Assembly (NCBI GenBank): GCA_037974965.1
Contig: JBBPFI010000005.1
Coordinates: 1,550,001-1,614,000 of the forward strand
Length of the DNA stretch: 64,000 nucleotides
Reading direction: 5' to 3'
From: Dacryopinax spathularia
Lineage: Eukaryota; Basidiomycota; Dacrymycetes; Dacrymycetales; Dacrymycetaceae
The notes under the pieces are model-generated. The model had not been told where the DNA came from. It did no database searches and was given only the letters and a program-made list of their open reading frames with translations. Both the position numbers and the translations under genes were made by a program. This document shows, in pieces, positions 14,931-52,459 of this stretch (positions are counted from its first letter, which is position 1; each line of letters starts with the position of its first letter).

Positions 14931-15053
14931 CACTAGTACATTTTTACTAGGGCTGTCCAATTCGCGCGACCTAGGTAATACCTCGTCACACCATTGATCT
15001 CTACCAGTCCTTCCCTCCTATCCCTCCTATCCCTCCTATCTCCTGTGTCGACA

Positions 15054-16722: not shown

Positions 16723-16823
16723 CATCCGGTAAGTCGCGGGAGATGAACATAGGCAGAGGTTACTCACTCTATTAGCAACACATATGTCATTCTAGAGGTC
16801 GGCTCCACTCTACAGAAAAGTTG

Positions 16824-19800: not shown

Positions 19801-21902
19801 GGGGGGGGGGGGGGGGCGGGAAGTATTATGTTGGCGCATCTCGCAGGATGCGACAACACAGCAGCCGAGAAGGGGGGGTGGGGGGAGGGACGGGGAGGGG
19901 GAGGACAAGAGTGGAGGTGAAGTATTATGTTGGCGCACATCGAATGCGATGTTCGCCAATATGATACTCCCCACATAAGGGTGTGAGGAAGAGCAAGAGG
20001 GGGGGCCGGGGGGGGGGGGGGGGGGGGAGAGAAGAGAGAGGATAACGGGGTAGAAAGGCAAGGAGGGGAGCAGCGGGAAGGGTAAAAGATGGAAGTCAAG
20101 GTGAAGTATTATGTTGGCGCATCTGGGATGCCGCAACATACTGGCTGGGATGCTCACCTGTTTTCAGGGGGGAGGTTCGCGATCTGCACGGACAAAGCGC
20201 CCGTACTGTACGGCGCGGATTCGTTGGAAGTCTTGGGATTGAACCTACAGGAGATCAGTCTGTGGGTATGATCTGGTGAAGAGCTGATGGAGACTCACCA
20301 GTCCAAGGACACCGCTACTCCCAATCGGAGCTCATCATGATGCTCGAGCTCTTCGGCCCTCGATGCTGGAAAGAAGAGCCTTCCGTCCGCTGCTTTGAGA
20401 TCTCTCCACACCGTTCCGTCTTGAATGCAACCGTAGGTGCCGGGCTTGACGTCCCGGTCTAGATATCGAGTACAGGCGTCTTCCATTCCTGGTTGTTGGA
20501 GAACGTCGACCAGTTGCTGTGAAAGTAGGTCGTACGGCGCCTGGAGACGGGGCCTTCGTGATTGTTTGGCCTGATGCGGGGATGGGTCGTCGTAAAGGGA
20601 TACTCCGCAGGATAGGCATATCGGGTAAGTCGATTCGTCGGCTGATTTCGGTGCTACTTCCCAGCATTGAGGGCACACAATACGCTTTTCGAAGCGATCA
20701 TCAAAGCCGCCGCGGTTGTAAATAGTTCTGAGCGTCCGAGGTGCCTTCTCTTGCGCTGGTTTCCCCGACTCGTCGCCAAGAATGCCGTAGTATAAGCAGA
20801 GGAAGTTGAACGTAGACAGTAGAATGTTACATCCAGCATGGGGTAGGTGAAAGACCGCATGCAGGTATGTTAAAAGCAGCGCCATCGCGCGGACGGCGGG
20901 GTGCTCGTGGAGTTGCTCGTATCGGCTCGCCGGATGTTGACGATCGACCGGGGCTTGATCGCTTTGGGGAAGGTCGATGTCCAATAGGCTGATGTCAATC
21001 CCAAGGTCCGAGCCGTCGTCACCATGGCTTGGCTCCTCCACTTGATCTTCGTCCTCCTCCTCTCCACTCCCTTCTTCCTCCAACTCATGTTCATCCGCCT
21101 GGTCTTCGCGTTCTCTTCCTGCTTCTCGCTCCCCCTGAGCCTCCTGTTCCTGCAGGACAGGCTCGTCAGCCTGTCCCGATACATCCTGAACCATGTCCCG
21201 TTGTACGCTTTCCTCGTCTCCCCCCTCCGACCCCTTCTCCGAGTCCTTACTATTCTGAAAGTCGTGCTCTTTGGGGCAGTCGCCGTCGACCTCGTATGGA
21301 TCGGTGTCCATGGCCGTTATCTGCTGGTCGAGGTTCTGCATGAGGCTTCCGAGGCTGTCTTCAGCCTCAGGCAGGCGCCAGAGAGCTCCGATCATCATTC
21401 CGAGGCCGTCGAAGCCGGCTGGAGTGACAGTTGAGGTCATAGGCTGATATGGGGGTGGCCCCTCCTCCAGTGTGGGTGGTTGGACCTCCTGCTGGTGAAG
21501 TATTATGTTGGCGTCTCTCGAACCAGTTTCTGGTCCTACTGTCGAGGCGCTGTTGGACGCTGCTTCAGGCACCTGTGCAAAACCGCGATTGAGCGGTTCA
21601 GGTGCTTCGCCTTGGCGGTCTGACTGCTCGGAGGCTGGGACCGATTGCAGAAGGCTTTCGCTTGCATTGCTGAAGGCTGTTTCTCGAGCTTCTTCCCGTC
21701 GACGGAGACGAGAGTTGGACGTAGCTTGCCCCGCGGAGTGCAGCGTGGATTGTACGGGGAGAAGTCGTGATCTGACATTCTTCGGCTTCGCTTGGTGCTT
21801 TTTATAGGCGCCGAGAGACCACCACTCGCGACCAGCAGGTGCATGTTGCACCAGGCACTCCGGACATCGACAGAGGATAGGAAGCTCCGACTTTGGCCCC
21901 AT
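16824..21902 (-). CDS. Tnp2-type transposase of a CACTA-like element
   Basis: Exon 1 (21902-about 20300) opens MGPKSELPILCRCPECL, a Cys motif, then a long Glu/Asp-rich linker, a second Cys cluster (CPQCW, CLSCG) and LYDDPSPHQAK, and ends ELRLGVAVSLDW. Exon 2 is 20158-20244 (WFNPKTSNES). A 768-bp intron (19390-20157) follows. The next exon carries VLPGPNEPSSDNLQ, VALVALVCDHPALCKVAGF, CTQC and the family signature PYFDP-like YFDPITMAVIDPMHSLLLG (about 18910). Later exons have GYPAGGSLTSDEW (about 18590) and FHWITHMDEQIRRFGP with FWTFLFERLNKTLKGYR (about 17950). The last exon ends VWITTALTKV before a stop at 16824. Order and spacing are those of basidiomycete Tnp2 proteins. Two motif copies lie in exons (21494, 16859); most others lie in its introns. 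It converges on the coiled-coil gene. Confidence 0.85.
18096..18177. repeat. Tandem 41-bp duplication containing the motif
   Basis: Within a Tnp2 intron, 18096-18136 and 18137-18177 are near-identical direct repeats. Each holds one full motif followed by CCAGGCCAACAG or CTAGGCCAACAG. This shows that motif number can grow by local duplication inside an intron. Confidence 0.9.
19390..20157. repeat. 768-bp Tnp2 intron built of motif copies, hairpins and G-tracts
   Basis: On the minus strand the intron runs from donor GTGAGC (20157) to acceptor CCAG (19390), far longer than the usual 50-80 nt here. It holds six motif copies (19415, 19481, 19597, 19818, 19916, 20100). Two are followed by CGCAGGATGCGACAACAC, which folds back on the GCGCATC of the motif. 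Two others (19597, 19916) are followed by a degenerate inverted copy (19625-19645, 19949-19969), so each makes a long imperfect hairpin. The plus strand has runs of G at 19677-19818 and 20003-20028. The unit looks like a small cassette multiplied several times. Exact lengths of the G runs may be unreliable. Confidence 0.85.
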
Positions 21903-22572
21903 GCAGGCGATGATGCTGTGGACTGGGCTTCGTCAATACTGCCTTTCGCTCGAAGGCACTGAAGACCAAGGCGCACCAAGCGGATAAAGCAAAACAAGTT
22001 CAACTGCTCCACACTCTGCCCAAGCTATAAATTCTGCCTTTGATCTCCAATCATTCTCGTTGCCAGGCCCCTTCTCGTTTGAATCGGGCGGTGATCCGTC
22101 TCCGAATACCAGGCGCTTCTGCCCAGGATCTCGCTGATGCCGCCGTCCATGGTTTGGCGAGGACCGCTTGCCCAGTCAGATTGCTGAAAGGGCGAATCCG
22201 CATTGACATCTGCGAAGAAGGTGTATAGTGGTTGAGGAGGGAGTGCGAGATGGTCGAGCTGGCGCCAGTACTAGTGCGATAGAGAAAGAGAAGTACTCGT
22301 CTCCTTCGCGATAAGGCTCATTGATGATCGGGATGTTGAACCAGGGATCTGATATATCGCGAGGCCACGTCACCATCATCCTGCACGATATCAACGTCGC
22401 ACCGCACTGTGGATCCTTTGGACACGCCAATATAACTAAACGAGTGTGATTCAAGGAGTGACTCGCCCTAAAGGCGTAAGTACAGGCATAGGGCATAGGT
22501 TGACATGAGGCGCTTTATTCAAAAGAAGGGGAGGGGGGGCGCAGGGATCAGCCTTAGAAGATAGACCAAATT
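21903..22572. other. Spacer between Tnp2 and the Ser/Pro-rich gene
   Basis: Both neighbours are on the minus strand, so this is the Tnp2 promoter and the 3' end of the next gene. A 106-codon minus frame (22176-22496) is open but has no motif and no clear link to either gene. No copy of the dispersed motif lies here. Confidence 0.5.
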
Positions 22573-23841
22573 CTAAGCCACGATAACTCTGTTACCCCCG
22601 AGGTACTCCTCCTTCATTGCGCGACATTCTGCCTGGAAAGCATAACCATTACGACGACCCTCGGCCCACTGCTGCGCAAACCACGACCTGGGTTGCTGGG
22701 TGGGCCTAGCTCGAGCCTCCGCAGAGTCGACGTTAGAAGATGTCTTCGGTTTCACGCTACTCTTGGGGTTGCGCTTGAGATTGGTCTTCCCGCGTGCGGC
22801 TATCTTGCTGAGTGCAGAGGTTCTGTGAGATCTGACAGCCTCAGCTGGCATGGTAAGATTGTGGGTGTCGCAAGATGAGGATACCGTATCAAGGCTGGAT
22901 GAAGTGACAGTGTTCGCCGGAATATCGCCAATCGCCGAGCTGCTCACGGTGTCGATCGAGCTGCTGTTGTCTTCAGGTACACATGCGTTGGCATGGAGAG
23001 CAAATTGAGAGTTGACAGGGCTGGCGATAACATCAAGGTGGTTGGTATCAAGATGGCCGTCGTCTTGTGATCTCACGCCTGAGACCACATTCGTGCTCTC
23101 CAGGTTCGCACTGGGATGGAGAACATATTGATTGATTTCGACAGGAGAGTTGATTTCGACAGGAGGGTTGATTTCGACAGGAGGGTTGATTTCGACAGGA
23201 GGACTGGCCAAAGCCGTCTCGTATGAAGGAGGTGCACCGATGCCTTGTGCACTCCAAGCCTCCGAGACGGTCGGTGCGTACACAGGAGGACCACGAGCCA
23301 CGTGAACAAGGGCAAGAAGTCTGTGCACGCGCTCATCGACAGGCCTGCCATGTTTCTGATTGAGACGAATGATCCGTGTAGCCATTTCTTCCATCCGAGG
23401 GAGCGCTTCAGGGTGGGCTCGAAGAAATGCCAAGAGCCGGATATCCGCGTCCCACTCCTCATTGCCCGTCGAAGGAACGCCGTAGAAGATCCCCCTAGCA
23501 GGGTCAGGGGGAACCACAATAGTAGTGCGATCTGGCAGCCGGATGTTTGAGAGCAAGGTTGAAGCGTTCTCGTGAAGCACGTCCGTGGCTGCCGTACAGA
23601 CAAAGTCCAAGTTGGTCGCAGTGTCGGCGACCGGGCCACCACTCGGGCTGGCGGCGAGAATTGCAGGTTGAACCTGCCGACCCAACTCCGCAGTACCACC
23701 GGGGTCGGGGTTGGCCGCAGTGTCGGCGACCGGGCCATCGCGCAGGCCGATGGCGAAAGGTGAAGTATTATGTTGGCGCATCTCCGTTCGTTCAGGCTTG
23801 GTTGGTCTAGCCCGCCGACCTCTGCCAAACCATGAGTACAC
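22573..23841 (-). CDS. Unrecognised transposon-borne protein, Ser/Pro-rich, with internal repeats
   Basis: A single uninterrupted 422-codon frame starting MYSWFGRGRRARP. It begins basic, then encodes TEMRQHNTSPFAIG, which is a translated copy of the element motif. A duplicated segment DGPVADTAANPDP / GGPVADTATNLDF follows, then a more globular stretch (DADIRLLAFLRAHPEALPRM, RPVDERVHRLLALVHVARG). PPSYETAL, a PPxY-type WW-binding motif, comes next, followed by four tandem units of NPPVEI/NSPVEI type. The tail is Ser-rich and ends basic (KIAARGKTNLKRNPKSS, RSWFAQQWAEGRRNGY). I do not recognise the family. Its position between transposase and membrane protein inside the motif-bearing interval marks it as element-encoded. 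Possible roles (DNA binding, adaptor) are guesses. Confidence 0.65.
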   Translation of the reverse strand: MYSWFGRGRRARPTKPERTEMRQHNTSPFAIGLRDGPVADTAANPDPGGTAELGRQVQPAILAASPSGGPVADTATNLDFVCTAATDVLHENASTLLSNIRLPDRTTIVVPPDPARGIFYGVPSTGNEEWDADIRLLAFLRAHPEALPRMEEMATRIIRLNQKHGRPVDERVHRLLALVHVARGPPVYAPTVSEAWSAQGIGAPPSYETALASPPVEINPPVEINPPVEINSPVEINQYVLHPSANLESTNVVSGVRSQDDGHLDTNHLDVIASPVNSQFALHANACVPEDNSSSIDTVSSSAIGDIPANTVTSSSLDTVSSSCDTHNLTMPAEAVRSHRTSALSKIAARGKTNLKRNPKSSVKPKTSSNVDSAEARARPTQQPRSWFAQQWAEGRRNGYAFQAECRAMKEEYLGGNRVIVA

Positions 23842-24395
23842 GCCAGATACTGGGACTACTATTTGAACTCACTTGCTTGATTTCTCTCTCTTCTTTGAAG
23901 ATAAACTGTAGGTGGGTTTCTTGTAGGTAGGTGATGAGGTCGTTGTCAGCGAGAAGACAACTGCGTCCGCTGAGCTGTGCTGCATGTCAGCCCCACCTCT
24001 CATCACGTGACCATAAGCGCCCATCTATTCCATTCATATTGTCAGAACTTTCATGACAATGAAATAACTTTATAATACCACTAGTCCACCCTCAAAGACA
24101 AGATTCTCCAGTTCAACGAGAGTGCACCAACATAATACTTCACCAGGTAAGTGAAGTTCACATGCTCTAATAAATATAAATTGCTTCACTCACGATTGTG
24201 GCGAGTAAGCCTCGTGTAGAGGCTTCTTTCCCATTGTGCATACACGCTCGCACAATCGTCGATACGGCTAGAAGCGCGCGGAAGCAATATCCGTGCTCAA
24301 AGCGAAGTCATCAGCGCGCCAGCGCATCGCTTGCCTTTATCTCTCTTTCCTTTTCGACGACGACCTGCATCAAGACGACAGCTTCGAAAAGCAAG
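23842..24395. promoter_or_regulatory. Divergent promoter region inside the Tnp2 element
   Basis: The unknown gene (minus) and the membrane-protein gene (plus) point away from each other across about 550 bp. It carries one motif copy (24119-24144), directly followed by CAG and a good splice donor GTAAGTGAAG at about 24146, so the copy may sit in a 5' UTR exon of the plus gene. An AT-rich patch (ATAACTTTATAATACC, about 24063) could serve as core promoter; this is inference. Confidence 0.4.
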
Positions 24396-25648
24396 ATGTC
24401 GACGCTGACCCTTGACGACACCGAAGGTTTGGAGTTGACGGAGATGGTGGTCAAAGATTGGGCGAAGGAAACGGTTCTGGGTGAGTTGCTGGATCGTGCG
24501 TTCCGGAGGGTGAAGGAAAAGGAGGAGATGAAGAAGACCGCCGGGGGCTCCAAAAGCAAGGACGAGCTCGACGGTGAAACCAGCAAGAAGAACGTCCCCG
24601 TCGAGGAGAACCAGGAGAGCGAGACGAGCTCCTTGAGCTCGGGATCTACCTACTCGGAGGACGACGCCGACAATCCCGCCCTCAGGGCGACCCGCAAGAG
24701 TGCTGCGCTCGACCGCATTCGTAGGGAGATCCTGGTCGATCCGGACGATCCTCGGTTCGCGCAGATGACGATTGCTCAACAGTACTTGGATGCGGCCGGC
24801 AAGGGAGATGTAGAGCTGACGAAGGAGTTGCTGGCGACCTTGTACTTGAGGCAAGCCCGTGAGGTGAGTACCTCTTGAATCCCAGCATAATACTTCTGGT
24901 GAAGTATTATGTTGGCGCATCTTCGCCAGCCTCTAACACCTTTCCAGGGGAATTTGTGTGGTCCGCCGGGCTCCCTCAGCACCATCGCCAGTGTTGAGGA
25001 GGAGGAGGTCGAGGACGAGGAGCACATCCTGGCTCCCGGGGTGCCTCTTCCTCCCGGCCTGAACCGCCCGCCCACGCTCAACGAGGTGAAGTTCGCCCTG
25101 CGCAACCGTATCATGCGCACGAATGCTGCCGTTCAGGCGGCGACTACCGAGTACCACGCCCCCCGTGGAAGGCAGACGGCGGGCAACGAGTCACTGCCGA
25201 CCTCCGCGAATGAACCTCCCCCGCCCAAGCCCATGCCCCTTGGCCCGAATGCCCGCGCCGGCTACGATGGCGTGAAGCACGTCATGGAGAAGGCAGTGCA
25301 GACGCTCGCCGCCGTCAGCACCTTCTTTACCACGAACGAGGAGGTCGCCGAGTACACCTGGTCCGCCTGGGCGCTCTACGAGGCGACGGAAGCCTTGGGC
25401 GTTCTTCTCCTCTGGCTCGAGCTGGCTCTCATCGGTTGCTGGGTCGTCATCAAGTATAATCCTCGCACCTTCCTCATCCTCACGAGTAAGTCTTACTCCA
25501 CCTTTAACATCGCAGGCTGACATGTATTGCAGTCGTTCTGATCTTCTGTAAGAAGCACGGTATCGCTATCGACGAGGTACTGTTTGGAATTCTGGAGGAT
25601 TTGGCGATGAAGGGCAAGATCGTGCTTGGTCGTGGGGGCGAGAACTGA
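24396..25648 (+). CDS. Transposon-borne small protein with two C-terminal hydrophobic helices
   Basis: Exon 1 starts MSTLTLDDTEGLELTEMVV, is rich in Lys/Glu and Ser, and ends LYLRQARE at about 24862. Intron 1 (GTGAGT to CCTTTCCAG, about 24863-24948) holds a motif copy preceded by its own inverted half. Exon 2 has an acidic stretch (SVEEEEVEDEEH), a Pro-rich segment, NEVKFALRNRIMRTNAAVQ, and the hydrophobic segment LGVLLLWLELALIGCWVVI. A second intron (GTAAGTCTTACT to TATTGCAG) leads to TIVLIFCKKHG and the C-terminus GKIVLGRGGEN. The frames and splice sites agree, so the gene looks intact. I recognise no family. A membrane protein is not expected in a DNA transposon; it may be a captured host gene or an accessory factor. 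Confidence 0.7.
24886..24911. repeat. Perfect palindrome made from two opposed motif halves
   Basis: CATAATACTTC (24886-24896), a 4-nt spacer TGGT, then GAAGTATTATG (24901-24911). The right arm belongs to the motif copy at 24898-24923; the left arm is its 11-bp inverted half. It lies within intron 1 of the membrane-protein gene. This is the only copy whose orientation opposes the transcript, and the palindrome restores a half-site in the sense direction. Confidence 0.9.
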
Positions 25649-25785
25649 TTGTTTGATACTGGACTTGTCAAGGGGTTATCGTGTCAAGAATGAATGCTGT
25701 TGACTGTTAACTTTCTGGCGAAGATGCGCCAACATAATACTTCACCAGCTCAGCGAACCAGCAGAGACGCGCCAACATAATACTT

Positions 25786-26830
25786 GATATCTCTATTATT
25801 GGCGAGAAGTACTGCAACTAAGTAAGACAGTTATTACTACTACTGGGACAAACCTAAAAACACCTAGATGAGGCGACACCGCGATTACCCTCGTTGTTTT
25901 CACAAAATATTACTCTATATAACGTCAGTGATGCTAAATTCCTGTTTCAGGGTTCAAGCTGGGAAGGGGTAAGACAGTTGCTGCTGAGTCAATACACCCC
26001 GCTGAAGAACCGGCACTTACAAGATAAAATTGGCGAAAGTTACGCTCGGTGAGATAATTGTCTCCTTACCTGACGCGTCCAGGGACAAGCCCTGAATGGC
26101 ATGGGACGACGCGTACCAGATATTAGTCACGGGACCCTGAAGCCAAGGTAAAACTATATAGCATAGAGAAGGCTAGATCAAAATAGCCGAGGACCCGTCA
26201 ACACGCGGTGATTGGGCGTTTATAACGCTTCTGCGATCAATTTGCCGTCTCTTTTGTCTGCGTCGAGCAGCAAGAATGGGCGCAGCGAACTCCGAGGCCG
26301 GACGCATATCCGGTGATTAGGTGGGTCATCCGCCGCCCCGGTCTATCGTTGGCCTCTCACGCATCAGACAGGGAACTAACAGGGAATTCCAGAAGCCTGG
26401 TGCTCAGCCGGCGGCTCTTACGATTGCCTTGATGGGCTACTGGCTCGTGCTGCGCGGCCGACAATCTCGATGTCTCCTGGCGCATTTCTTGTACCCTACA
26501 GCTTTTCGTCGGACCGAGCCAACGTCAGCGGGGGACGGTACTACTTACAAGAACCTCTGGGCACCCAACCTAGGCGATTCGTCCAGTCAATCCGTGGATC
26601 CCATCTGCTCAACCTAAACGACCGCCTTCTAGTCCGCCCCGCCTCATGCGAAGGACGCTAACCGCAGCATTCCCGACCAAAATCTGGACCGACCTCAGCG
26701 CCTACATTGTATGGCGGTGGCTCCAGGCCAGCATATAAGTTCGCACACAGTTCGAACCCCGGCCCAATCGCAGCTTTTTCCAACTTGAATCGACTCCAAC
26801 GTACTGCACGCAGTCGCTTTAGATGGGACG
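25786..26830. other. Right flank of the Tnp2 element and spacer
   Basis: About 1 kb with no supported gene. Open frames at 26321-26661 (plus) have no recognisable motif. The right terminus of the transposon should fall in the first part of this stretch; I could not find an inverted match to the candidate left end at 14931. Confidence 0.5.
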
Positions 26831-39782: not shown

Positions 39783-40224
39783 GCTCGCCGAACACGGCGT
39801 GCACGTTCGGGAAAGGTGGAAAGGGTATTCTGCTCATCGCCAAGCCTGTCTTCTATATATCGATGTTCTTGGGCAGCGGGCCATAACTCGCCGCTCTTCC
39901 GCGCACTCCCCACCGAAAATGAGAGGTGGTCCCGCCTGTGGGAAACAACACATGAGGGGTGACTTGGTCGCGGGTGTTATGCCGGTCGAACATGTCATCG
40001 ATCCCCGAGATCAGGGGCATCAGAACTTAAAAGAGCCAATCAGAGGTCGAGCGGGTGTTTTCATTTAAGGGATCAAACGGAGACAAACTAAAAGCACTAC
40101 CTTTTCTGGATGCTGATTGGTCCACTGGCGTCTGCCCAGCACTCGCTCGGCCTCCGAACGACCAGGATGAGTGGCACTGGATGATTCGCACATCACGAAA
40201 AGGAAGCAAAGTGAGTAAGCCCTG
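39783..40224. other. Spacer before the Plavaka element
   Basis: Promoter of DHA2 copy 2 and left flank of the transposon. No gene seen. Confidence 0.6.
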
Positions 40225-40244
40225 GTAAGGGTTTACCAGCCTCA

Positions 40245-40297
40245 CCAGCCGTGCCAGGGCCGCGGGGAAGGACCCTTGCCTTATAAGGCATTGTCAG
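40245..40297. repeat. Left inverted-repeat blocks of the Plavaka element
   Basis: CCAGCCGTGCCAGGGCC (40245-40261) and CCTTATAAGGCATTGTCAG (40279-40297) have inverted counterparts at 52056-52073 and 52012-52030. The inner block matches at 17 of 19 positions. These look like terminal or subterminal repeats of the element. Confidence 0.65.
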
Positions 40298-40671
40298 CCC
40301 TTATAGGAGGCCGATGGTAATTGTAATGCCCGGAAGGGTTATTCTGCTCCCCAAGTTGTGTAACCCTTCTGTTCCTTTATGGGCAATGTAAATCCTTTTG
40401 CCTTCTTGCAAGGCCTTCCCAGATGGAAGCAGCCTTGCCACCCTTCACCACTCTCGCACCCCTTCCCTTGCCTCACCATGCCTGGTCGGCGCTCCTTAGG
40501 ATTCCAGACCGCTGGCCACGCAGTGTAATAAGGCATACAACGTTTGAATAACTTGTAATCCACGTAAAACACCACGAACGCTAACTAGTTGACTCCCCGG
40601 AAGCCAGTCTGATGGCTTCCGAATGGATTCCGAACCACGCCTGCTCACATGCTGCTCCTCATCGGCTCCCG

Positions 40672-42362
40672 TTATTTCTCGGAAGCCCAGCGCGGTTCCC
40701 CTTCCCACCCTGAAGCATCTCCCAGTGGTGATAGCCCTTGCGCGGCCATTGCCTTGGCCTGCTCGATCATGAGGTTGGCTGTTTCATCGTTGTGGGAACG
40801 ATCGGGAATGGTTGACGGAAACACGCGTCTGCCTCAGACGGCCGTTAGCTGCTGGTCATGATCCGGCAAACCGTGCACTCACGCGTTGTACCACTTCAGA
40901 AGGGACCGCTTCAGGTCTGCCACGGCCTCGTTCTCCAGCAAATTCACAATACTGTAATAAAAGCGACTGTAGTCGAAACTGTCGTGCCCCCCTTTGGAAA
41001 ACATTTCTTCCGCGGACATGGCGAAGCGTAACTTGGTACTGCTGAGCCGGGGCAAATGTTCCGTGCACGGAAGCTCACCTGGAAGGCCACATAGGCCAAG
41101 GCCGGGACCGTCATCTCAGTCATTCCCGCTATCTGTGCATTGCCTGCTCGGTTGCTTCGTGTGCGACCAGGGTCGGAAGCCAGAGATGCCGTCGGAGACA
41201 CAAATACACATAGTGTGGCCTGAAACGAGCATCAGCCGTCAAGGGACTACGTCAGGTCGGAAGCCCAAAGTGCGTACCCGCAGCATAAGTTCATTCTGCA
41301 TGAACCCATCCCACATGTTGTGCGGGTTGGCCTTGAAGTTTCGGAACATGAAATTGGGGTACTCCCCATGGCAGGCACTGGCACCACCCAATCCGCTCTT
41401 CAATCGCTCCCGATCGCTGTTACCACTTCAGTGAATAGCTGGTTTCCGAACGCCCCCTCGCCCGTCACTCACATCGGATTATCCCAATCCAATCGCCAGG
41501 GCGTCAGGAGGCGACCCGTCAGTTCGTGCTCCCAACCACGACCCGTCTTTTTCTTGGTCGAAAGGCCGGTCGTCTTCTCGTTCGGAAACACGTGTTGAAG
41601 TATCTCGACAATGTAATTCTTCATCCGATTCGTGTCTTCCGTGCGTGCATCCGTTCGACCCTTCTCTAGCTGTGGGACGGGTTAATGACATGAAGGCCAT
41701 AGCAGTTCACAACCCACCGCACGCGCAACATACTCCAACCCGGCATCCTCCGCCTTGTCTGTCAAACGTTCCACTATTCTCGGGTATTTAGCTTCGATGG
41801 CCTGATAAAACACCAAACGATGATGCTTCCTACAAGCTCTTGAGCTTCCGATCCTGGGGCCTGGTAAGAGGACTCACTTAGGATCATCTTCAGCGAGGCT
41901 TCCGAGGTCCTCTTCGTCCCAAGTCATCCCATCTTCGAGTGCGGGGTACATGGGCTGGAAGGCATCTAGGGCCCTGCCTGCATGTTTCCCTATGCGCTCC
42001 AGGGGATCCGCCGGTCGCCTGGAGGTCTGTTACTCAGGTACCATATGCATATGTCTTCCTGCGAAAACCCGCACCTGACGCGCTTCCGACTGTAGAATCC
42101 TTCGTCATCACATGGGGTAGATCACTTAGCTCCCGTGAAGGCGGGAAGCAGCGGAGTGGTGGGCAACGTTGGGGTTGCTGGTTGGAGTGGGGAGGGAGAG
42201 TCGGATGTCGAGCCTTGGCTTCCGACTGTCGACCGGTTGGCAAGCATGGCCGGTCAGGTGTATTGAAGGCTTCAGTGGGTAGGCTACCGTAGGGAGAATA
42301 TTAAAGTCGGGAGCAAGAGGGTCGCGGGAGGGTGTGAGGGTGTCCAGAAGAACATCGGGCAT
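40672..42362 (-). CDS. DUF6698-family transposon protein
   Basis: DUF6698 proteins accompany transposons in Agaricomycetes; the role is unknown. Exons traced on the minus strand start MPDVLLDTLTPSRDPL. Then HAGRALDAFQPMYPALEDG with DWEEDLGSLAED-like acidic end (donor GTGAGTCC, about 41878), and KAIEAKYPRIVERLTDKAED follow. Next is EKGRTDARTEDTNRMKNYIV with TKKKTGRGWEHELTGRLL, the conserved core, and FMFRNFKANPHNMWDGFMQN (about 41320). MTEMTVPALAYVAFQ comes next, then TKLRFAMSAEEMFSKGGHDS and FDYSRFYYSIVNLLEN, and finally VFPSTIPDRSHNDETANLM to WASEK at 40672. All the family landmarks are present in order with plausible introns of 50-80 nt. It is divergent from the transposase, sharing a 370-bp promoter region. 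Confidence 0.75.
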
Positions 42363-42727
42363 GATATACGCCCATGCAGGGGTGCGCTACACGCGCATTG
42401 CATTAAGACACGTTGTAAATAAATAACGCTGTCTATTTACTGCGTGTGACGCGGCGTGTGAGGTGGCCAATCCCGTGCTGCTCCCTGGCCAGACCGGAAT
42501 GTGGGTCGACGGAGTCAAAGTCGCTTTCGGGATTTCGGCTTCCAAGCTTGCGCCCTCTGAACACGTCATCGAGTGACTTGTGGTCCCAACTGGTGAAGGC
42601 TGGCTTTCCAGCCTTCCGAGTCACCACTGGCACCTTCTTCAACATTCGATCGGGTTACTCAGCGAAGCTTGTAACCCGATCGCGAGCCTTAGATCGATCT
42701 GGAAACGCAATTACCACCTGGTCCATC
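42363..42727. promoter_or_regulatory. Divergent promoter of the DUF6698 and Plavaka transposase genes
   Basis: About 365 bp between two divergent starts. It includes the AT-rich stretch AAATAAATAAC (42417-42427). Unlike the genes around it, the stretch has no exact CGGAAGC; near matches GGCTTCCAAGC (42538) and GCCTTCCGAG (42612) occur. Confidence 0.4.
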
Positions 42728-45700
42728 ATGGGGGACCCGGCGCATGGTATTACCTGTGCTTGCGGACACAGCTTTTCGCGTATAGCGGAATACACTAAAC
42801 ACCAAAAGAACGGATGTACAGCGCACTCTGAGCGCCGATTCAAGGCGGACTTGGTGGCCGCAGCGAAAGCAGACCGGAGGCGCCTCAAGATTCAGAGACG
42901 TCTTGAACTGGCTCGGAAGCCACATCTGCCGAAACTATCCGAATCGCCTGCGATGCAAGACATTGAGATGATCCCCATCGCAACTGCCACCCAGGAGGCA
43001 GCACCTAATGATTTTACAGCAGAGGTAAGTGTGCTCCTCCATATGTAAGAATAAACTAGAAGGCTCAGTAATCGCCAGCCGGATTCGTTGGGCCCCACCA
43101 ATGAAGTCCCAACGCACGAGCTTGAACCCACGCCGGATGACGGCTTGCGCCGAAGCTCCCGGGTGGGCAGAGGCGAGCGTCGAGCTCCCAGACCTTACGA
43201 GGATCAGCTTCCTATGGGCCTCTCAGCATTGATTGAAGCGGTCGGAAGCCGGCGCAGACCGGGTGACCGCTCCGCAGAGCCTCATGCTCCCCGGGAACCC
43301 CTCGAGGACTCCACTCCGCCAGTCTCGGAAGCCAGTTTGCCTGCCTCTGCCGAGATTGCCGTGGAGGCAGAAGCGCCGTCTGCCAATGTTCGCTTCCGAA
43401 CGCAGCCCAATCGTCACGGGCTCTTCCGGGAGTACACTGAGCGCCCTCTCAACATACCTGACGATTACAATGTCACAGCTGACGAGTCACCCGTTGAAAG
43501 TGACAGCCGCTGGGTACCTGAAGCCGACCATTCGTCCCGCTATTATGGAGTATATCCCAACTGGACATCGATGGCGCTGGACAAACACTATTGGGAAAAG
43601 AGCCAGGGGAACAAGTCCCACAACGATCAAATGGCATTGGTGGACCTCATTCTAGATCCCCGTTTTAGCCAAGCGGAGTTGCAAAACATCCCATGGCTCG
43701 CCCTTCGGAAACAGCTCACTGCGCCCGATACAGAGCACCTCGGAAGCCATCATGGGCCGGGTTACCGAGTGTCTACGCTGTCGTTGAACTTGCCCCTGGG
43801 TAAGGACAACAACCAACACTTCTACGTGGGGCAGTTCCAGTATCGACCGCTTCTTCAGCTCGCCGTGGATATTTGCGAGCACGATCGACATGCTGGATCA
43901 TTTCATTACACCCCATACGAGCTCTACCGCTGCCAGTCCGCCAGCACAGAAGCCATTGAACGCCTCTATGATGATGTCTTCGCTTCCGATCTCTGGTTAG
44001 AAGAACATCGTCGAATTCGTGCCCAGCAAATCGGTGAAGACTGTACACTTCCGAGGGCGGTGCTCGGACTCGCCTTTTGGTCGGATGCCACTCAAGCCGC
44101 GCAATTTGGGCATTCAAAGCTTTGGCCGGTATACATGATGGTGCTGAACCAGCCCAAACGTCAGCGTCTCCAACCGAGCTGTAACGCTTCCCATCAGGTC
44201 GCCCTGTTGCCTGATCTACCAGAGGATATTCAAGCGACCATCCGATCGCACGGTGGCAAGGCCGCCAGCCGAAGCTTGCAAACATATTGCCGTCGGGAGC
44301 TCTTTCATGCAGCTTGGAAGTGCATGTTAGACGAGGAATTTCTTACAGGGTATGCACACGGAATCGTCGTGCGTTGCAAGGATGGTTTCCGAAGGCGGCT
44401 GTTCCCGAGGATATTGTTTTACGCTGCCGACTACCCGGAAAAGTGGGTGCGATCCTTGATAAATGAGTCGAAATGGCTGACATCGCTTCTCACCGTACGA
44501 TTAGAGTGCTCATTGCCACGATTAGGGACCTCGGTGGTTGTCCTTGCCCGAGGTGTTACGTTCGTCTCAATGAGGTGAAATTGCTAGGCACCTCGAGAGA
44601 TATGTATACGAGAACACGGAAGAGACGGGAAGATAACGAGGAGCGGCACTACACAATTAATCATGCCATCACTCTCCTTCGGGAGAAAGGATTTAGCATT
44701 GATAGAGTTACGCAGCTTCCGACCCTGCAAGAGCACTCCTGGGTACCGCATTGGGTTGGTGGTTCCCGCTTCCGAGCATCGTCTACCACTGACAACGGCC
44801 TCCCGCGTCCGGCAGAATGCTTTCTCTTGTCTGGTCCCCCAGGGATTCAATATTTTTTCGGCGCTGGTGGTGGACGTGATGCATGAGGTGGAACTCGGTG
44901 TATGGAAGGCTCTGCTTGTGCACCTCCTCCGAATGCTGCATTCCATCGGTTCCGCCACGATCATCGAGTTCAATGCACGTTTCCGGGCGGTTCCCAAGTT
45001 TGGGCGTGAGGCCATACGGCGCTTCGATGGAAATGTTTCCGAGCTGAAGAAGCTGGCTGCGCGGGATTACAAAGACATTCTTCAGGTCAGGAAACATTCC
45101 ATGTGGTGGCACTCTGCTGAGTACTACTTCGGTTTGGATGCAGTGCATAATCCCAGTCGTTGATGGGCTCTTCCCGGAACCTCACAATACAAGTGTGATC
45201 ACCTTGCTTTTCACGATGGCTCAGTGGCACGGTTTGGCGAAGTTGCAACTCCATTCCACGGGAACCGTTGAATTACTCAAACAGACCACAATCTTGCTGG
45301 GCCATCGTCTGAGACAATTTGCTGGCAAAACGTGTGCAGCCTTCGAGACCTTCGAGCTCCCGAAGGAAACCGCCGCGCGAGCCCGCGCAGCGGCACAGAA
45401 ACAGCAAGGCTTGCAAACGGTCCCGACAGTATCCCGGAAGCCCAAAGTCTTTAGCTTGAGAACATACAAACTACATGCTCTGGGCGACGTAGCAGACACC
45501 ATTCTTCAGCTAGGACCGACGGACGGATACTCCACGCAGGTGGTAAGTGCGAGCGGGTTTTTTTTTTTTTTTCGCGCACCAAGCTGATGTCGTGGGTCAA
45601 GGGCGAGCTGGCCCATAGAGTCACCAAGGATAACTACCGCCGAGGCAGCAAAAGAGACCACATGGGGCAGGTCGCCAAGTTAAGTAGGCTCAGTGAGCAG

Positions 45701-46824
45701 CTGCGTCGAATTGAGGACTTGTCGGAAGCCAGTCCCAGCAGCAAGGAGCCCCCGGAGGTGGAGGTATTGCCATACACGGATGGCAGAGGGCGCTATCATA
45801 TGGCCCAGCGTGCCAGAAAAGTTCAGCATATCAATGATTTCCTGGAATTTTATGCTGGCGACCCAGCGTGCCGTGTAAGCCCAAATCACGTAGTTCTTTG
45901 CCTTTCGGAAGCTGAATTGAAAATCACAGAATTGGTCTGCTAGGTTAAAAAAACATATATATGCCCGCCTGTTTGGGCTGGATCTCTACGACGACTTGCC
46001 CAGAGAGCATGAAGCATCGTCTCGGAAGCTCCACATCATCGGGAACCGAATCCACTGGCACGCAGCCATTCGTTTGAACTATACAACATATCATCTACAG
46101 CGCGCCCAAGACTATATCAATCCAACCACGGAGCACTGCAACATCATGATGCTCTCAGGAGCTGAAGAGGATCCGAATCCCTTCTGGTACGCCCGAGTCC
46201 TACGGGTGTTCCATGTCCAAGTGGCTCATCCGAACTGGAATCACGGGGAGTCTGGTCGAATAGACGTGCTGTTTGTGCGTTGGTACGGTAGTGATCCTGA
46301 GGTGGCCTACGACGGTAGCTGGGAGACGTCCCAGCTAGATCGGGTGGGCTTTGTCCCCGAGGATGACGAATATGCGTTTGGATTTGTGGACCCGTCGTGG
46401 GCTATCAGAGAAGCCCATCTTTGTCCACTTTTTAAAGAAGGCACGACCGACACATTACTTTCCGGCTATTCACTCGCAAGGGAGGGCGCCATTCAATGCA
46501 ACACTCATGGCCATGACTGGAGGCTGTTCAATGTGATGAGGTGAAAGGCGGTCTTTGTCTAGCGGAAATCATTGACTCCCTTCCAGGTTTAGTGATCGAG
46601 ACCTCCTCATGAGATACGTCGGAGGCGGCGTTGGACATGCCTCGGGAGCTCGTTTTGCAGAGAAAACATTGCGCGATGTGGGACAGAGCGTGGCACTCTC
46701 AGAAATAGATCACGTAGCTTCCGAAGTAGAGAGAGGCGAGGAGGCAGGGGAGCTGGAAGATCCGGAAGCCGAGAAGGAGGAGGCCGACTGGATTAGCGAT
46801 GCGGAGGAGGACGAGGACGAGTGA
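42728..46824 (+). CDS. Plavaka transposase, multi-exon, apparently complete
   Basis: The catalytic protein of the element. Exon 1 starts MGDPAHGITCACGHSFSRI and forms a C2HC-like finger with KHQKNGC; intron donor GTAAGT at about 43024, acceptor near 43077. Exon 2 has FREYTERPLNIPDDY, NIPWLALRKQL, YVGQFQYRPLLQLAVDIC, FHYTPYELYRC, LEEHRRIRAQQIGEDC, FWSDATQAAQFGHSKLWP and FPRILFYAADYPEK, all family landmarks. Next come VLIATIRDLGGCPCPRCYV and an intron at about 44737, then VVDVMHEVELGVWKALLVH, GREAIRRFDGNVSELKKLAARDY, and VVDGLFPEPHNTSVITLLF with MAQWHGLAKLQLHS. The last exons carry the beta-rich tail FWYARVLRVFHVQVAHP and GGGVGHASGARF, ending in an acidic tail at 46824. One intron contains a run of 15 T (about 45560). 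No break was noticed. Confidence 0.88.
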
Positions 46825-47119
46825 GCGAACGTTGGCATTCGGGCATAAGTAGGTTTCTATTCCCTGCTCTAAATACAGCGGAATGACTACCCTACGGAAA
46901 CGGGAGGCGAGTATGACTGAAGTCACTACTAGAGAGAGAGAGATAAGAGAGGGAGAGAGAGAGAGAGAGGAGAGAGCGAGAGAGTGGCAGGAGAAGTGGG
47001 AGGAATCGCGACACGAGCCTTTTTTTGTGCTTTTCCAATGTTTAAATTTTTTGGGGGTTATTTCTGGGGCGGTTTTGCGGCAAAGATATGTGAAGAAACA
47101 AGAGAAGGGTGACTGGGGG

Positions 47120-50100
47120 CTACTCCCAGTCGGGCGTAGCCCCCAGTTGAGCACTTATTTCGGCCTCCGAGTCCTCGGCTTCAGAGTCGGGAATGATCTC
47201 TTCGTAGTGCTCTTGATCCCTCCGAGGTGGCACGAGCCCATGTGTTCGAGCTGGGTGCGGTGCTGCCGATGGAGCGGATTGCCGATAGAGGGGACGAGGA
47301 CGCGGCTGCTGGTGAGACGGCTGCCGCTGAGGCGACGTCGGAGGCCCACGCTGCTGCTGACGCTGCTGGGGCGGAAGCTGCTGCTGCGGCGGCTGAGGGG
47401 GACGCTCCTGCTGCTGTTGCTGGCGGAGACGGTCTTGCTGCTGTTGCTGAGGGGCGCGCTGCTGCTGCTGAGGTGGACGCTGCGCCTGCTGCTGCTCTGG
47501 CGGACGCTGTTGCTGCTGCTGGGGCGCACGCTGCTGCTGGGGAGGCGGCGCCGGAGGCTGAGGCTCACGTTGCTGAGGCGGCTGTTGCTCTGGACGAGAG
47601 CCCACATGCAGCAGGCGACTCATGAAGCTTCGGTTCTCCCTCTGCAATTGGACTGGGGGCAAGAGCGGCCGAGGGCCAGAAGCAGGAGCTTCCGAGCCAG
47701 CGCGGGACTGGACAAGCGTCTCCTCGGAGACGGCACGTTGCCCGGTCCCCCTGCTCCTGAAGGGCGAGCCGAGCTCTGGTGACTCACGTGCACCAGCTTC
47801 CGGTGTCCGAGGAGGCTCTTGTGGGACTACACCATGCGGAGGAGCAGGTGGATCGGCCACGAAGCGGTCGAGAGCACCAGGCCACGGCGCCTGAGTCGCA
47901 GGTCGGAAGCTGACGAGGGGGAACGCGCCCTCGTAAGCATTGCCTTGATAAAGGCGACCACGATTCAGCTCGGGAGCGGAGACCTCATCGAAGCAAAGGC
48001 GCCAATCGGTGTAAAAACGGCAGAAAAAAGCGTCGTTATCTATTGCAAGGTAAGATAGAAAGTACTCCCATTAGAGTGTACTCCTTACCTCTGCGCGCCT
48101 GACCTCCGGAAACGCCAAACGTGCAACGTACCTTGCGCTGATTGCACGCCCAGCAAGAACGATGGAACTCGCGGCCACAGACAGGTCGACCTTGCCTGAT
48201 GCATTCATTGCAACGGGCTCCACCAGTTTCCAGCTGCCACATCGGTCAGACAGCCCATGGACTCGGAGTTCGGCCACTTACCCGCAGGTCCCGTGCGTTC
48301 TGCCTTGGGTGCGCAAACCGGAGACGAAGATGCTTGTATTGCGCCACAAGCGCGTTGGTAACCGGCGGTCCGCCCTCTAGAATGTCAGTGTAGCGGTCTT
48401 CCGTCTACGAAGCGATCAGGCTAGGCCCATTCGGAAGCCAAAAAACACTTACGCGCCACCTGAAAGTTCGACCCCGCACTGGCCCCTCGTAACCTTCCCG
48501 CAGAACCAGTGGTGGAGCTCCAGGGGGCTATCAATGAGCGTGTTAGTGGTGACCTGAGTGATGAGGCATGCATGTCGACCGACCGGATATCCGTAAGTCC
48601 ATCCCTCCTCGGGCAACAAGGTAACCAAGGGCGCTTCCGAATCGTCCGGCTTCCGAGCTGGGCTGCGCTCAGTCTGATACGGCATTAGTTGAGTAGATTA
48701 CCATGTTTGCGCTGCATGGCTTACCTGAACACCACCTGGGCCATGCAGCTGGGTTCGGCTGGACTCCGGTTGACGGGAACGGGTCGCTACCGGCCTCCTT
48801 CTGCTCTCCGACCGCTGCACTTCCTGGCCGTCGGAGTCGAGTTCGACGATTTCTTCCCCTTCGGAAGCCGGAGCTGTTTGCCGACTGGATTCGCCTGGTC
48901 TGTTCCGTGCCGGGAGAGGCCTCGACGTCAGATGTGCAGGCGGTACCTCAAAGCCGTCGGAGTCCAGTTCCACGACCTCTTCCTCAGATTTGGAAGCCGC
49001 TCTGCCTTTGCCCTTCCCACGAGTGGGCGCCTTCCCTTTCGACAGTGCTGGGGCAGACTTCCCACGTTCCTGTTATTTGGTGTCAGCTTTCACGCTTCCA
49101 GAGATCCTGTAACATGACTTACCGACGGCATATTCATGGCTCCCACGGCCTTCAGCAGCACGGCTTCATCCTCGGTGTCCGGAGCTTCACTGAGTGGGGA
49201 ATCCGATCCGGGCTGGACCATGGTAGTGGTCAGGGGGTTCGGAAGCCGGAGCAATGCCTCAGCTTGCTCTCTCGCACCTGGAGGCAGCTCTTCGGGAGCG
49301 AAAAATGGTTTATACTGTCTTCGATGTGAGCACAAACCGAGCCTCCCTTGTGAAAAACCACTCACCGTAGGATTGAACCTGCGGTCTTCCGCTCGAGGAG
49401 GTGTAACCCCACTGACGTGAGGATCCAGCTCGACCTCAGGACCTGGAGTCTCCCAGCTTGGCGCCCTCGGAAGCAAGGGAGGTTCCGGGACAACAACCCA
49501 TGCCGTCTCCTCCGGGCTTCCGAACGGGTTGGCAGCGTCTGTCCAGTAGATAAGTTGCCTCGCCAGCTCTTCACGAGTCTGTCGGGGGCGTCGCGTAGCC
49601 CAGTTGGATAGGTCACCAATAGGGCCCTCCGCATCTATGATGATGCCCATTCCGGCACGAAAGGCCTGGAAGAAATCGTAGTCATCAAACCGGCGCGATT
49701 GAAGGAGTCGCATGAACTGTTCCAGGGCGAATGCAAGACGGGCATCATACACGAGGCGATTTGGCAAGTACTGGATAAGAATTTGACGGATGGCCAGCTG
49801 TTCCCGATCATCAGCTCGGCCCAACAAATGGCTTCCGAAAGAACTTACGAAAGGTTCTGCCCACTGTTGCAGCATGCCTAGGACCACTTGATCGCCTCGC
49901 CCGACAGCGTCAGCCATCATTCGACCTGCGTCGTACAGCCGCCATCTCTGCACATACGCTCTGATTCGCTCGCGCGGATCGCGCCAGACGAACATCGGAG
50001 GCTGCAAAGAGCCGCCCGCCGTGCGAGTTCCGGCCCACTCTAAGCGGTTTCCGACCATCCGCCCAATGACGCTGGGATCATTCTGGCCTGGCCAGACTGC

Positions 50101-50406
50101 AGCAAGCAGACGGGGACCAGCCATCTGAGCCCGGCTCGGGAGATGGGCGAGAGGACGGTGCTGGGGCGTCCTGACCAATGGTCCCTCTTCGGCTTCCGAA
50201 GACTCTCCGCCCGCCCCTTCCACCGCCTGCTGCAGACGTTGGAGTTGTTGGGGCGGTTGCTGCGGCTGTCGTGTGCTCGGAGGCCGCAGGAGGTGCTGCT
50301 GCGGCTGATGCTGCTGCTGTTCCTGGCGCGAGTGGGTGGGTTGTTGCTGGGGCGGTTGGCGTGGCACCTGCCCTGCCTGCTGCTGACGATGCGGCTTCGG
50401 GCGCAA

Positions 50407-50442
<36 letters not shown>

Positions 50443-50503
50443 AGGCTGCTGCTGCTGCTGCTGCTGAGGCTGCTGCTGCTGCCGCTGCTGCTGCTGCTGC
50501 TGC

Positions 50504-50553
<50 letters not shown>

Positions 50554-51123
50554 AGGCTGCTGCTGCTGAGCGGCGCGCTCGGTTATCGGTGGACCGCCAA
50601 AGATCGGACGAGGTCGAGGAGCCCCTCCCAGGGAGCGACGTGCTCTCCCGGTGTTTGCTCGCACAGGGGGAGGGGAATCGCTCTGCAGCTCATCCTCCGA
50701 TTCGGGAAGAAATAACGGGTCGGAAGCCGACGGAGGAGCAGGACGAGGAGCTGGGCGTGCTGTTGGGGGTGCTGGACGTGCGTTTGAGGGCAGTTCGGAA
50801 GCGCCTGTCGTCGGTGGAGCCCTGCGGCGGTACGGGTTGAACACAGGTACGCCAAGTGGGGAACCCACTGGCTGCTGGATCGGAGGCCCAGTCGCGGCGG
50901 AAGGCACTGATCGCGGGGGTGCGGCTTCCTCGTCGTCGTCCAGCATGCTGGGACCGAATCGCCTGGCGGTAGGGGAGGGGTCACCAGTGGGATGGCTTCC
51001 GACCGGTGCACCAGGCACTCTGGACGGATGGCCATCGAGCTGCCGAGCAGCGGAGGGACTGACAGTGTTTGCCGGAGGAGCTGTGGAGCGAGTGGAGCGA
51101 CCAGTATTGGTTGATTTGGACAT
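47120..51123 (-). CDS. Plavaka accessory protein: polyQ tract, SPRY-free core, Cys cluster, Gln/Pro tail
   Basis: The start MSKSTNTGRSTRST at 51123 leads into a Pro/Arg-rich part, a polyQ tract (50400-50575), and a folded core (MFVWRDPRERIRAYVQRW, RRFDDYDFFQAFRAGMGI, LARQLIYWTDAANPFGSPEE). Downstream exons have repeated acidic KSEEEVVELDSDGFEV / GEEIVELDSDGQEV. Then comes EEGWTYGYPVGRHACLITQV and, at 48240-48120, the cluster CNECIRQGRPVCG...CWACNQRKVRC, a Zn2Cys6-like arrangement (C-x2-C-x6-C ... C-x2-C-x5-C). The next exon joins DNDAFFCRFYTDWRLCFDEV into a Gln/Pro-rich tail that ends ISAQLGATPDWE at 47120. Proteins with such a Cys cluster accompany Plavaka in other Agaricomycetes, role unknown. 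The Cys cluster plus basic residues make it a candidate DNA binder. Exon joins between 48.0 and 49.1 kb are inferred. Confidence 0.65.
50400..50575. repeat. Trinucleotide CTG/CAG tract encoding polyglutamine
   Basis: Nearly pure CTG repeats on the plus strand (CAG on the coding minus strand), broken by a few CCG and AGG triplets. They encode Gln with occasional Pro and Arg. Related shorter tracts lie at 47340-47590 in the 3' exon of the same gene. Length is likely variable between strains. Confidence 0.95.
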
Positions 51124-52011
51124 CTTGAGAGGATGGGGATGAGTCAAGCTAGCAAACGGACCAGATTTATACGGGGAAAAGAGAAAGGAGAGAGGCCAAA
51201 GGAGAGTGACGAGCTCACCCTGGTAACGGCCAGCACCGCTTGCAAAAATCGGAAGCCAAACACATGCTTGCCTCGAGGCGCGCTGCGCGTCGGAAGCCCG
51301 CTGGGGCTGTGCAGAAGCGTTCGGTTTAGATGATCCCACGTATACCGACCTGAATGGCGAAGCGTAAGTCCAAGACGACCACACTTCGCTAGCCTCACAA
51401 GGAGGGTATGCTCGGGAGCACGCTATGCGAATTATGGAATGTGCGTGGTCCACTCAGCCAGACGGGCTTCCGAAGGAGGTACCACGACCTGGCCACACTT
51501 AGCTCACGAACGAGATGAAGAGCTGAATGTCGACGTACCACTGTGTGGTTTAAGACGGAAGCCATCGGAGTGGCCTAGTTTCTGTGCCAGTGGCCTCGGG
51601 AACGTGCGTGAAGACTAAACTGAGAGGAATTGACATTGTGCCAGCACTGGCAGCCTGCGAGACGACAATGTCGGAGGCGAATGTACAAGGAGTGTGGCAA
51701 GGGCAGGGAGGGGAGGCTGGGGAGATACAGAATCAGGGTTGAGTTGGATGGAGGCGATGGGCGAGCTCCCGAAGGTTTTGTAGCCACCGTGCGAAGGAGA
51801 GAGCAGCGTCTCCCACATGACGGGAGAACTTAGCGGAAGCGGCTGCGCGTTTTGGAAACAAACAAACGGATGTAATATCCTGACGCGGCCTTCCAAGTAG
51901 TCCCAAGTGTTGTGTCATAGTAATAACGGTGATGTAATTGTCTTATAAGTGTATGGCCAAGGCCGGCTAGGCTCGCCCTACCTTACCATCCTGCTTCCGA
52001 AAGGCCGAGTT

Positions 52012-52073
52012 CTGACAAGGCCTGATAAGGCCTTGCGCGGGCTTCCGAGGGCGCTGGACCCTGGCCGCGCTGG
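52012..52073. repeat. Right inverted-repeat blocks of the Plavaka element
   Basis: CTGACAAGGCCTGATAAGG (52012-52030) and GACCCTGGCCGCGCTGG (within 52056-52073) are the inverted partners of the left blocks. Copies of the dispersed 7-mer lie between and beside them (51993, 52042, 52082). Confidence 0.65.
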
Positions 52074-52459
52074 CCGAGCACACGGAAGCATTGGGTCCGA
52101 GCTGGCAGGGGAGACCAGGGACGCGCAGTTTTCATGATGCATTAGTACTCCACGGGGTCTATTGGGCTTGCCGTACCCCGCTGGAAGCTTTAGTGGCATA
52201 GAAATCATATGGGTCATTATTAAAGCACGTTCATGTCTTGTAAGACATATCGCCATATATTGTCGCGTATCTGATAACGCAGCTGCCAAAAATACAAGTG
52301 CCGAGATCCCTGAAAGAGGCTAAGGCGACCGCTGATAGCCAGTTCCGCCCAAGGGCCGCATGGGCGTGCGCGTCGTGGGGACCTGGCGCGAATTGCCAGC
52401 TTTGGATGTAAGCGCTGGTTGCATCCACAAAGGCAGAGAGATGTCCGATGTCCAGGGCA

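Follow-up and report, generated by a model that had tools for sequence, protein, structure and literature searches.

A Plavaka transposon of the basidiomycete Dacryopinax spathularia, here called E1, carries 48 copies of the heptamer CGGAAGC/GCTTCCG between positions 40598 and 52090 of the 64-kb stretch of DNA analysed (the window), against eight copies in the remainder, a density about 26 times that of its surroundings. The enrichment stops at the element ends, is independent of strand, frame and gene, follows sharp rules as to which changed letters are tolerated, and is matched by enrichment of different words in other elements of the same genome. In our judgement it is somewhat better than an even bet (a probability of roughly 0.55) that the whole length of this transposon, exons included, has collected the octamer TCGGAAGC as an element-specific binding site for a protein that the element itself would encode.

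Distribution of the word

An earlier note on this DNA had described about 48 such words on both strands and in all frames, roughly one per 240 bp, with only stray copies elsewhere in the window. A recount agrees on each point: the orientations are mixed, all three frames are used within coding blocks, and the mean gap is 244 bp, or about one heptamer per 250 bp (Table 1). The gaps fit an exponential distribution (KS p 0.56), and the positions are compatible with a uniform spread, both for the heptamers (KS p 0.61) and for the 39 copies of TCGGAAGC taken across the element (p 0.53). From the left end to the first word there are 407 bp, and from the last word to the right end 50 bp. The largest interval without a word, 733 bp (43982-44715), falls over part of the transposase core.

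Alignment of the 48 words shows a T immediately before 39 of them and a C immediately after 28, with every further flanking column holding at most 0.24 bit. The flanks carry too little information for the words to have been copied as parts of some longer repeat, which rules out tandem expansion or the copying of such a repeat as their origin; a tandem-array scan (score of at least 150) found no word-bearing array in E1. The sharper octamer core TCGGAAGC has 39 copies in E1. Sixty order-2 Markov simulations gave it about 1.0 on average and 5 at most, and never brought any non-repetitive 8-mer above 8 copies. The nonamer TCGGAAGCC, under which the array was originally reported, covers 24 of the 48 words and is a less exact form than the core. 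By raw count CAGCAGCA is commoner (n=51), consisting of the CAG/GCT repeats of a Gln-rich gene in one local array. Comparison with the host, which had been proposed as a check, leaves the word private to E1: across the 29.2-Mb genome TCGGAAGC occurs 1297 times against 1287 for its reversed control, and TCGGAAGCC 295 times against 262, so that both stand at control level and a host-wide word is ruled out.

Words within coding sequence

Exons and open frames hold half of the words (24 of 48); shuffling of synonymous codons would place only about three there. The excess is seen both in the 4,074 nt of homology-supported exons, with 11 words where shuffling gives 1.95, and in the 3,348 nt of orphan frames, with 13 where it gives 1.29, and none of 3000 shuffles reached the observed number in either class. 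The peptides that the words encode differ from place to place (GS, SEA, FR, LP, ASD/ASE, RK). The shuffles rule out codon or peptide bias as the source of the words; coding constraint is overridden by the word. Density is higher still outside the coding blocks, since the other 24 words sit in only about 4.5 kb (5.3 per kb, against 3.2 per kb in 7.4 kb of coding blocks).

Changed forms of the word are distributed unevenly over its letters. The nine possible single changes within CGG of TCGGAAGC occur at chance level (7 observed, 7.2 simulated), as do changes of the final C (2 against 1.9) and non-transition changes in AAG, positions 5-7 of the octamer (5 against 4.0), whereas purine transitions in the same AAG are clearly in excess, with 22 where 200 simulations gave 2.5 and never more than 8; a slighter rise is seen at the first T, which is changed 9 times against 3.3 (maximum 10). 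Neutral decay would hit all positions, and the pattern therefore looks like the tolerance of a reader that requires CGG and accepts either purine behind it, as would suit a site read by a protein. Decay of a methylated CpG inside the word is ruled out, CpG transitions being without excess (2 observed, 1.7 simulated). The observed/expected ratio of CpG in E1 (0.89) and in its relative on contig C14 (0.87, with TpG/CpA at 1.23) is slightly below that of other stretches (0.94-1.04), which, if it points to methylation-driven mutation at all, does so only mildly. Taken with the spread of the words and the synonymous shuffles, the changed forms support a DNA-level reader as the simplest account, as the first description of the array had proposed.

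The element and its genes

The assignment to Plavaka, made at first from the letters alone, is confirmed by the transposase domain PF18759 (E 7.8e-26; 91.5 bits against a Pfam cut-off of 26.3) and by the termini CATCACGAAAA and CATCATGAAAA. These, read from one copy, match the CATCA..TGATG ends of PlavakaB with a target-site duplication (TSD) of 2 bp, the published description of that group allowing 2 or 3 bp (Kojima, PMC12730594). Within the stretch searched, two other pairs of ends have an equal match count and a TSD, both without CATCA..TGATG. E1 is apparently single-copy: a transposase search of the genome gave one full match for it, and a DNA search, which returned no match at E1's own place either, listed no second copy.

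Table 1. Features of the window, in window coordinates (TIR, terminal inverted repeat).
Feature	Position	Strand	Remarks
E1, Plavaka transposon, 11,949 bp	40191..52139	+	TIR CATCAYGAAAA, TSD CA, Plavaka domain
Left TIR CATCACGAAAA of E1	40191..40201	+	TSD CA at 40189-40190
Right TIR TTTTCATGATG of E1	52129..52139	-	TSD CA at 52140-52141
DUF6698 (PF20414) gene	40876..41951	-	divergent from transposase; six-exon model is our own
Plavaka-type transposase, several exons	42755..46541	+	PF18759; N-terminal Cys/His finger at 42755-42817
Gln-rich orphan protein	47123..51120	-	unspliced frames 51453-49093, 49072-48701, 48245-48039, 48070-47123; candidate reader
Zn2Cys6-like cluster CX2CX7CX7CX2CX6C in Gln-rich protein	48123..48212	-	
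E2, EnSpm/CACTA transposon	14589..26210	+	PF02992, E 3.7e-9; TIR CACCGCGTGTTG; TSD ATT
CGGAAGC words in E1 (n=27)	40598, 40680, 41068, 41174, 41258, 42914, 43243, 43326, 43741, 45435, 45723, 45906, 46023, 46763, 47372, 47904, 48432, 48862, 49240, 49468, 50721, 50796, 51250, 51291, 51556, 51834, 52083	+	
CGGAAGC words in E1 (n=21)	40615, 41844, 41898, 42082, 42218, 43392, 43982, 44715, 44768, 46717, 47688, 47796, 48633, 48649, 49516, 49831, 50192, 50995, 51466, 51993, 52041	-	
Stray CGGAAGC/GCTTCCG outside E1	3334, 5435, 9414, 21345, 24279, 25387, 30052, 63792		

The protein nearest to the E1 transposase, as the best of 8000 scored candidates, is P0001 of Calocera cornea (48% over 58% of the query), with alignment identities of 41-74% for the individual exons. 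The DUF6698 gene was recognized in three pieces (E 6e-15, 8e-10 and 3e-11), and within the genome this domain is matched at two loci only, E1 and the element on C14. In a search with the DUF6698 protein, not one of 1069 candidates reached E 1e-3, and the domain was not met in the literature searched. Apart from Plavaka and DUF6698, Pfam scans of the E1 frames yielded nothing beyond weak matches. Among viral contigs 49 stretches fit a pattern, none of them a relative.

The earlier note had also pointed to a Cys-cluster protein at 47.1-51.1 kb. The cluster does exist, on the minus strand, within the Gln-rich gene; its match to the Pfam Zn2Cys6 profile PF00172 is partial, covering positions 1-14 of the 39 in the profile, and at 15.6 bits (E 0.017) stays below the cut-off of 21. 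No related protein was found among 8000 scored candidates for residues 470-787, and a single-sequence fold of the Gln-rich domain is of no use (pLDDT 39.9).

Words in other elements

No DNA of a close relative of E1 came to light; its nearest relative in the genome is a Plavaka on C14, whose transposase exons are 28-62% identical to those of E1. As had been predicted for a related element, it carries a word of its own, the palindrome GTCATGAC, with 49 copies in about 19 kb (789462-808616) against 0.9 simulated and none in the 3-kb flanks to its left and right. Neither word is found in numbers in the other element: GTCATGAC is absent from E1, and TCGGAAGC occurs once in the C14 element. Only 3 of the 49 words overlap homology-supported coding blocks. 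Their gaps are clustered (p 0.033), with 13 of 16-28 bp, the outer quarters of the element hold 33 words, and the flanks show few biased positions only. The candidate ends CATCTAC (789173-808795, TSD GA) are weak, as one of seven best-scoring pairs, and the one with a TSD, among 476 CATC..GATG pairs; a wider scan gave 20 other pairs with 10-12 matches and a TSD, including the better-matching 788454-808731.

The C14 element also holds three paralogous accessory genes without a Pfam match; a JmjC-like identity for this family, considered from an IPPGW motif, was unsupported by Pfam or by a PDB profile search. Relatives of all three are found at a third GTCATGAC locus, C4:519309-539407, which has 13 words against 0.6 expected and is without a Plavaka match. 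This locus has an inverted duplicate at C11:394430-414519, the duplication being longer than the stretches compared. Pairs of GTCATGAC 16-28 bp apart also stand upstream of related small genes in both C4 and C14. At C1:2148471 and C1:2152192 a pair of GTCATGAC with a nearby CCGTCATGACG palindrome is a possible further stamped locus.

A third word belongs to the CACTA element E2 of the same window; 15 other CACTA matches were listed in the genome beside those examined for words. Its dispersed word GGTGAAGTATTATGTTGGCGCATCTC has a core, AAGTATTATGTTGG, present in 17 exact copies in both orientations within a consensus of about 26 bp, two of the copies forming a 41-bp tandem pair; with a motif this long, the words of E2 may have arisen by copying. 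A second copy of E2 lies at C17:607172-618837 (TSD AAT), and the only exact occurrences of AAGTATTATGTTGG elsewhere in the genome are the 17 within it. Because the two copies agree at 99.8% of positions at their ends (533 and 641 bp compared), and no further exact copies of the core exist in the genome, E2 is recent and its word private.

Stamping is not general among Plavakas. From 45 match rows 22 copies were tallied, of which seven were examined for words: E1, the C14 element and five of the other 20. None of those five (C3:560063, C11:89545, C6:334060, C2:713650, C3:993202) carries a dispersed 8-mer. When each element is divided into 40 bins, any one 8-mer reaches at most 7 bins in these five and 6, 7 and 6 in host stretches of the window, against 27 in E1 and 20 in the C14 element. 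E1 and the C14 element, the two that bear words, have DUF6698 in common. Several other Plavaka copies have a DUF6532 (PF20149) gene in their neighbourhood, at up to a few kb or at about 13 kb, which suggests a regular partner gene comparable to DUF6698 in the two word-bearing elements. Two mainstream transposases also have local tandem arrays 4-7 kb away, at C11:95263-95808 (units of about 26 bp) and C2:707.5-708.5 kb (about 19 bp), perhaps like the subterminal arrays of CACTA elements.

Possible mechanism and alternative explanations

Our proposal is that E1 encodes a DNA-binding protein for which TCGGAAGC is the recognition site. Zn2Cys6 proteins classically read CGG triplets, and for this reason the Gln-rich Zn-cluster protein is the best candidate reader among the E1 genes, with the DUF6698 protein and the N-terminal finger of the transposase as alternative candidates. 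Binding along the whole of E1 would mark the element as self and keep it open against host silencing, or else activate its genes, an effect modelled on that of VANC for VANDAL and of TNPA for Spm; private words would stop coexisting elements from activating one another. A pattern scan for the Zn cluster, applied to unspliced sequence, came back empty for both the C14 element and E2, so one type of reader does not explain all the words. No common reader was found among the three elements. The only mildly lowered CpG ratio, the higher word density outside the coding blocks of E1, the different coding/noncoding pattern, clustered gaps and word-rich outer quarters of the C14 element, and the long motif of E2 with its tandem pair also count against the proposal, and the cases of the three elements may not be one mechanism.

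The words might instead be CACTA-like TNPA sites for excision and synapsis, subterminal motifs that have spread inwards and serve transposition rather than anti-silencing. Plavaka is placed in the same superclade as CACTA (PMC12730594), the motifs of CACTA elements differ from family to family and are recognized by unrelated proteins of the elements (PMC2613891), E2 is itself a CACTA element with its own word, and the outer quarters of the C14 element are rich in words. We nevertheless regard this as unlikely, since the words hardly crowd towards the ends: the outermost 500 bp of the two sides together contain 4 of the 39 octamers of E1 (3.3 expected), 4 words of the C14 element (2.5) and 2 of E2 (1.5), while the Tgmt* motifs of soybean are confined to the last 159 and 732 bp (PMC2613891). 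Less likely again are enhancer-like sites that would form an internal regulon, serving transcription of no genes but those of the element: C14 speaks for it, with 46 of 49 words outside homology-supported coding blocks and close pairs, some of them upstream of related small genes, but in E1 the words cross exons and spacers on both strands, and 48 sites are more than a few promoters need.

That a host factor of chromatin, replication or repair binds the word and is exploited by the element would require no element gene and would explain the absence of a common reader; different words in elements of one genome, and the lack of host enrichment for TCGGAAGC, make it improbable. Least credible is a mutational or copying process (slippage, templated insertion or gene conversion) acting in place of selection. 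The long motif of E2, with its tandem pair, could have spread in such a way; the E1 flanks, however, share almost nothing, its words fall in codons of different peptides and show no excess of CGG-changed forms, and the C14 flanks are biased at a few positions only.

Against these alternatives we prefer the reading of TCGGAAGC as a site for an element-made protein. A broader proposition, which we offer tentatively and at slightly under even odds, is that several Plavaka and CACTA transposons of one fungus each carry a private address word over their length, read by their own protein and, in E1, acquired by point mutation through exons against codon constraint. Different words would then let unrelated elements coexist without waking one another, and the whole would be an element-wide code of self-recognition in fungi with an evolutionary origin separate from that of plant VANC.

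Relation to known systems

Motif arrays private to transposon families are already known, and several systems invite comparison. The DNA uptake sequences of Neisseria and Haemophilus are short words that run through genes on both strands and are enriched over the whole genome. The E1 word is likewise short, on both strands and within genes; the analogy, raised when the array was first noticed, fails because the host genome is not enriched for it. Among Plavakas, E1 shares the transposase domain, the CATCA..TGATG ends and the 2-bp TSD, but the available excerpts of PMC12730594 mention no dispersed word, and none is seen in the five other Plavakas examined here.

The TNPA system of CACTA/En-Spm elements offers a family-specific repeated motif and a poorly conserved DNA-binding protein of the element, within the same CMCT superclade (PMC2613891). 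E1 has a candidate for such a partner in its Gln-rich Zn-cluster protein, to judge from the predicted cluster; the TNPA motifs, however, stand at the ends, whereas the E1 words extend over the full 11.9 kb. In the VANC/VANDAL system of Arabidopsis, whose elements are MULEs, an element-encoded protein reads a word and exerts anti-silencing over the whole element (PMC5735166, PMC10398659). The words are YAGTATTAY for VANC21 and AGTTGTCC or AGTTGTAC for VANC6 (PMC5735166, PMC10398659), and they form tandem repeats in noncoding regions (PMC5735166). The likeness to VANC that had been suggested holds in that the word is short, element-specific and different in related elements (TCGGAAGC in E1, GTCATGAC in the C14 element). 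It does not extend to arrangement, the E1 words being single, scattered with exponential gaps and half of them in coding blocks, nor to the transposase, which is Plavaka and not MULE, and Pfam scans identified no VANC-like protein in E1.

An array over the full length of an element, exons included, was not found in the portions of the literature searched. Known transposon arrays keep to the ends (CACTA) or to noncoding tandem repeats (VANC), whereas that of E1 runs through exons and shows coding sequence moulded by strong selection on a DNA word. With three different words in one genome, the co-evolution of word and reader becomes directly testable. Should the reader open chromatin, sequence alone would have revealed a fungal equivalent of VANC anti-silencing.
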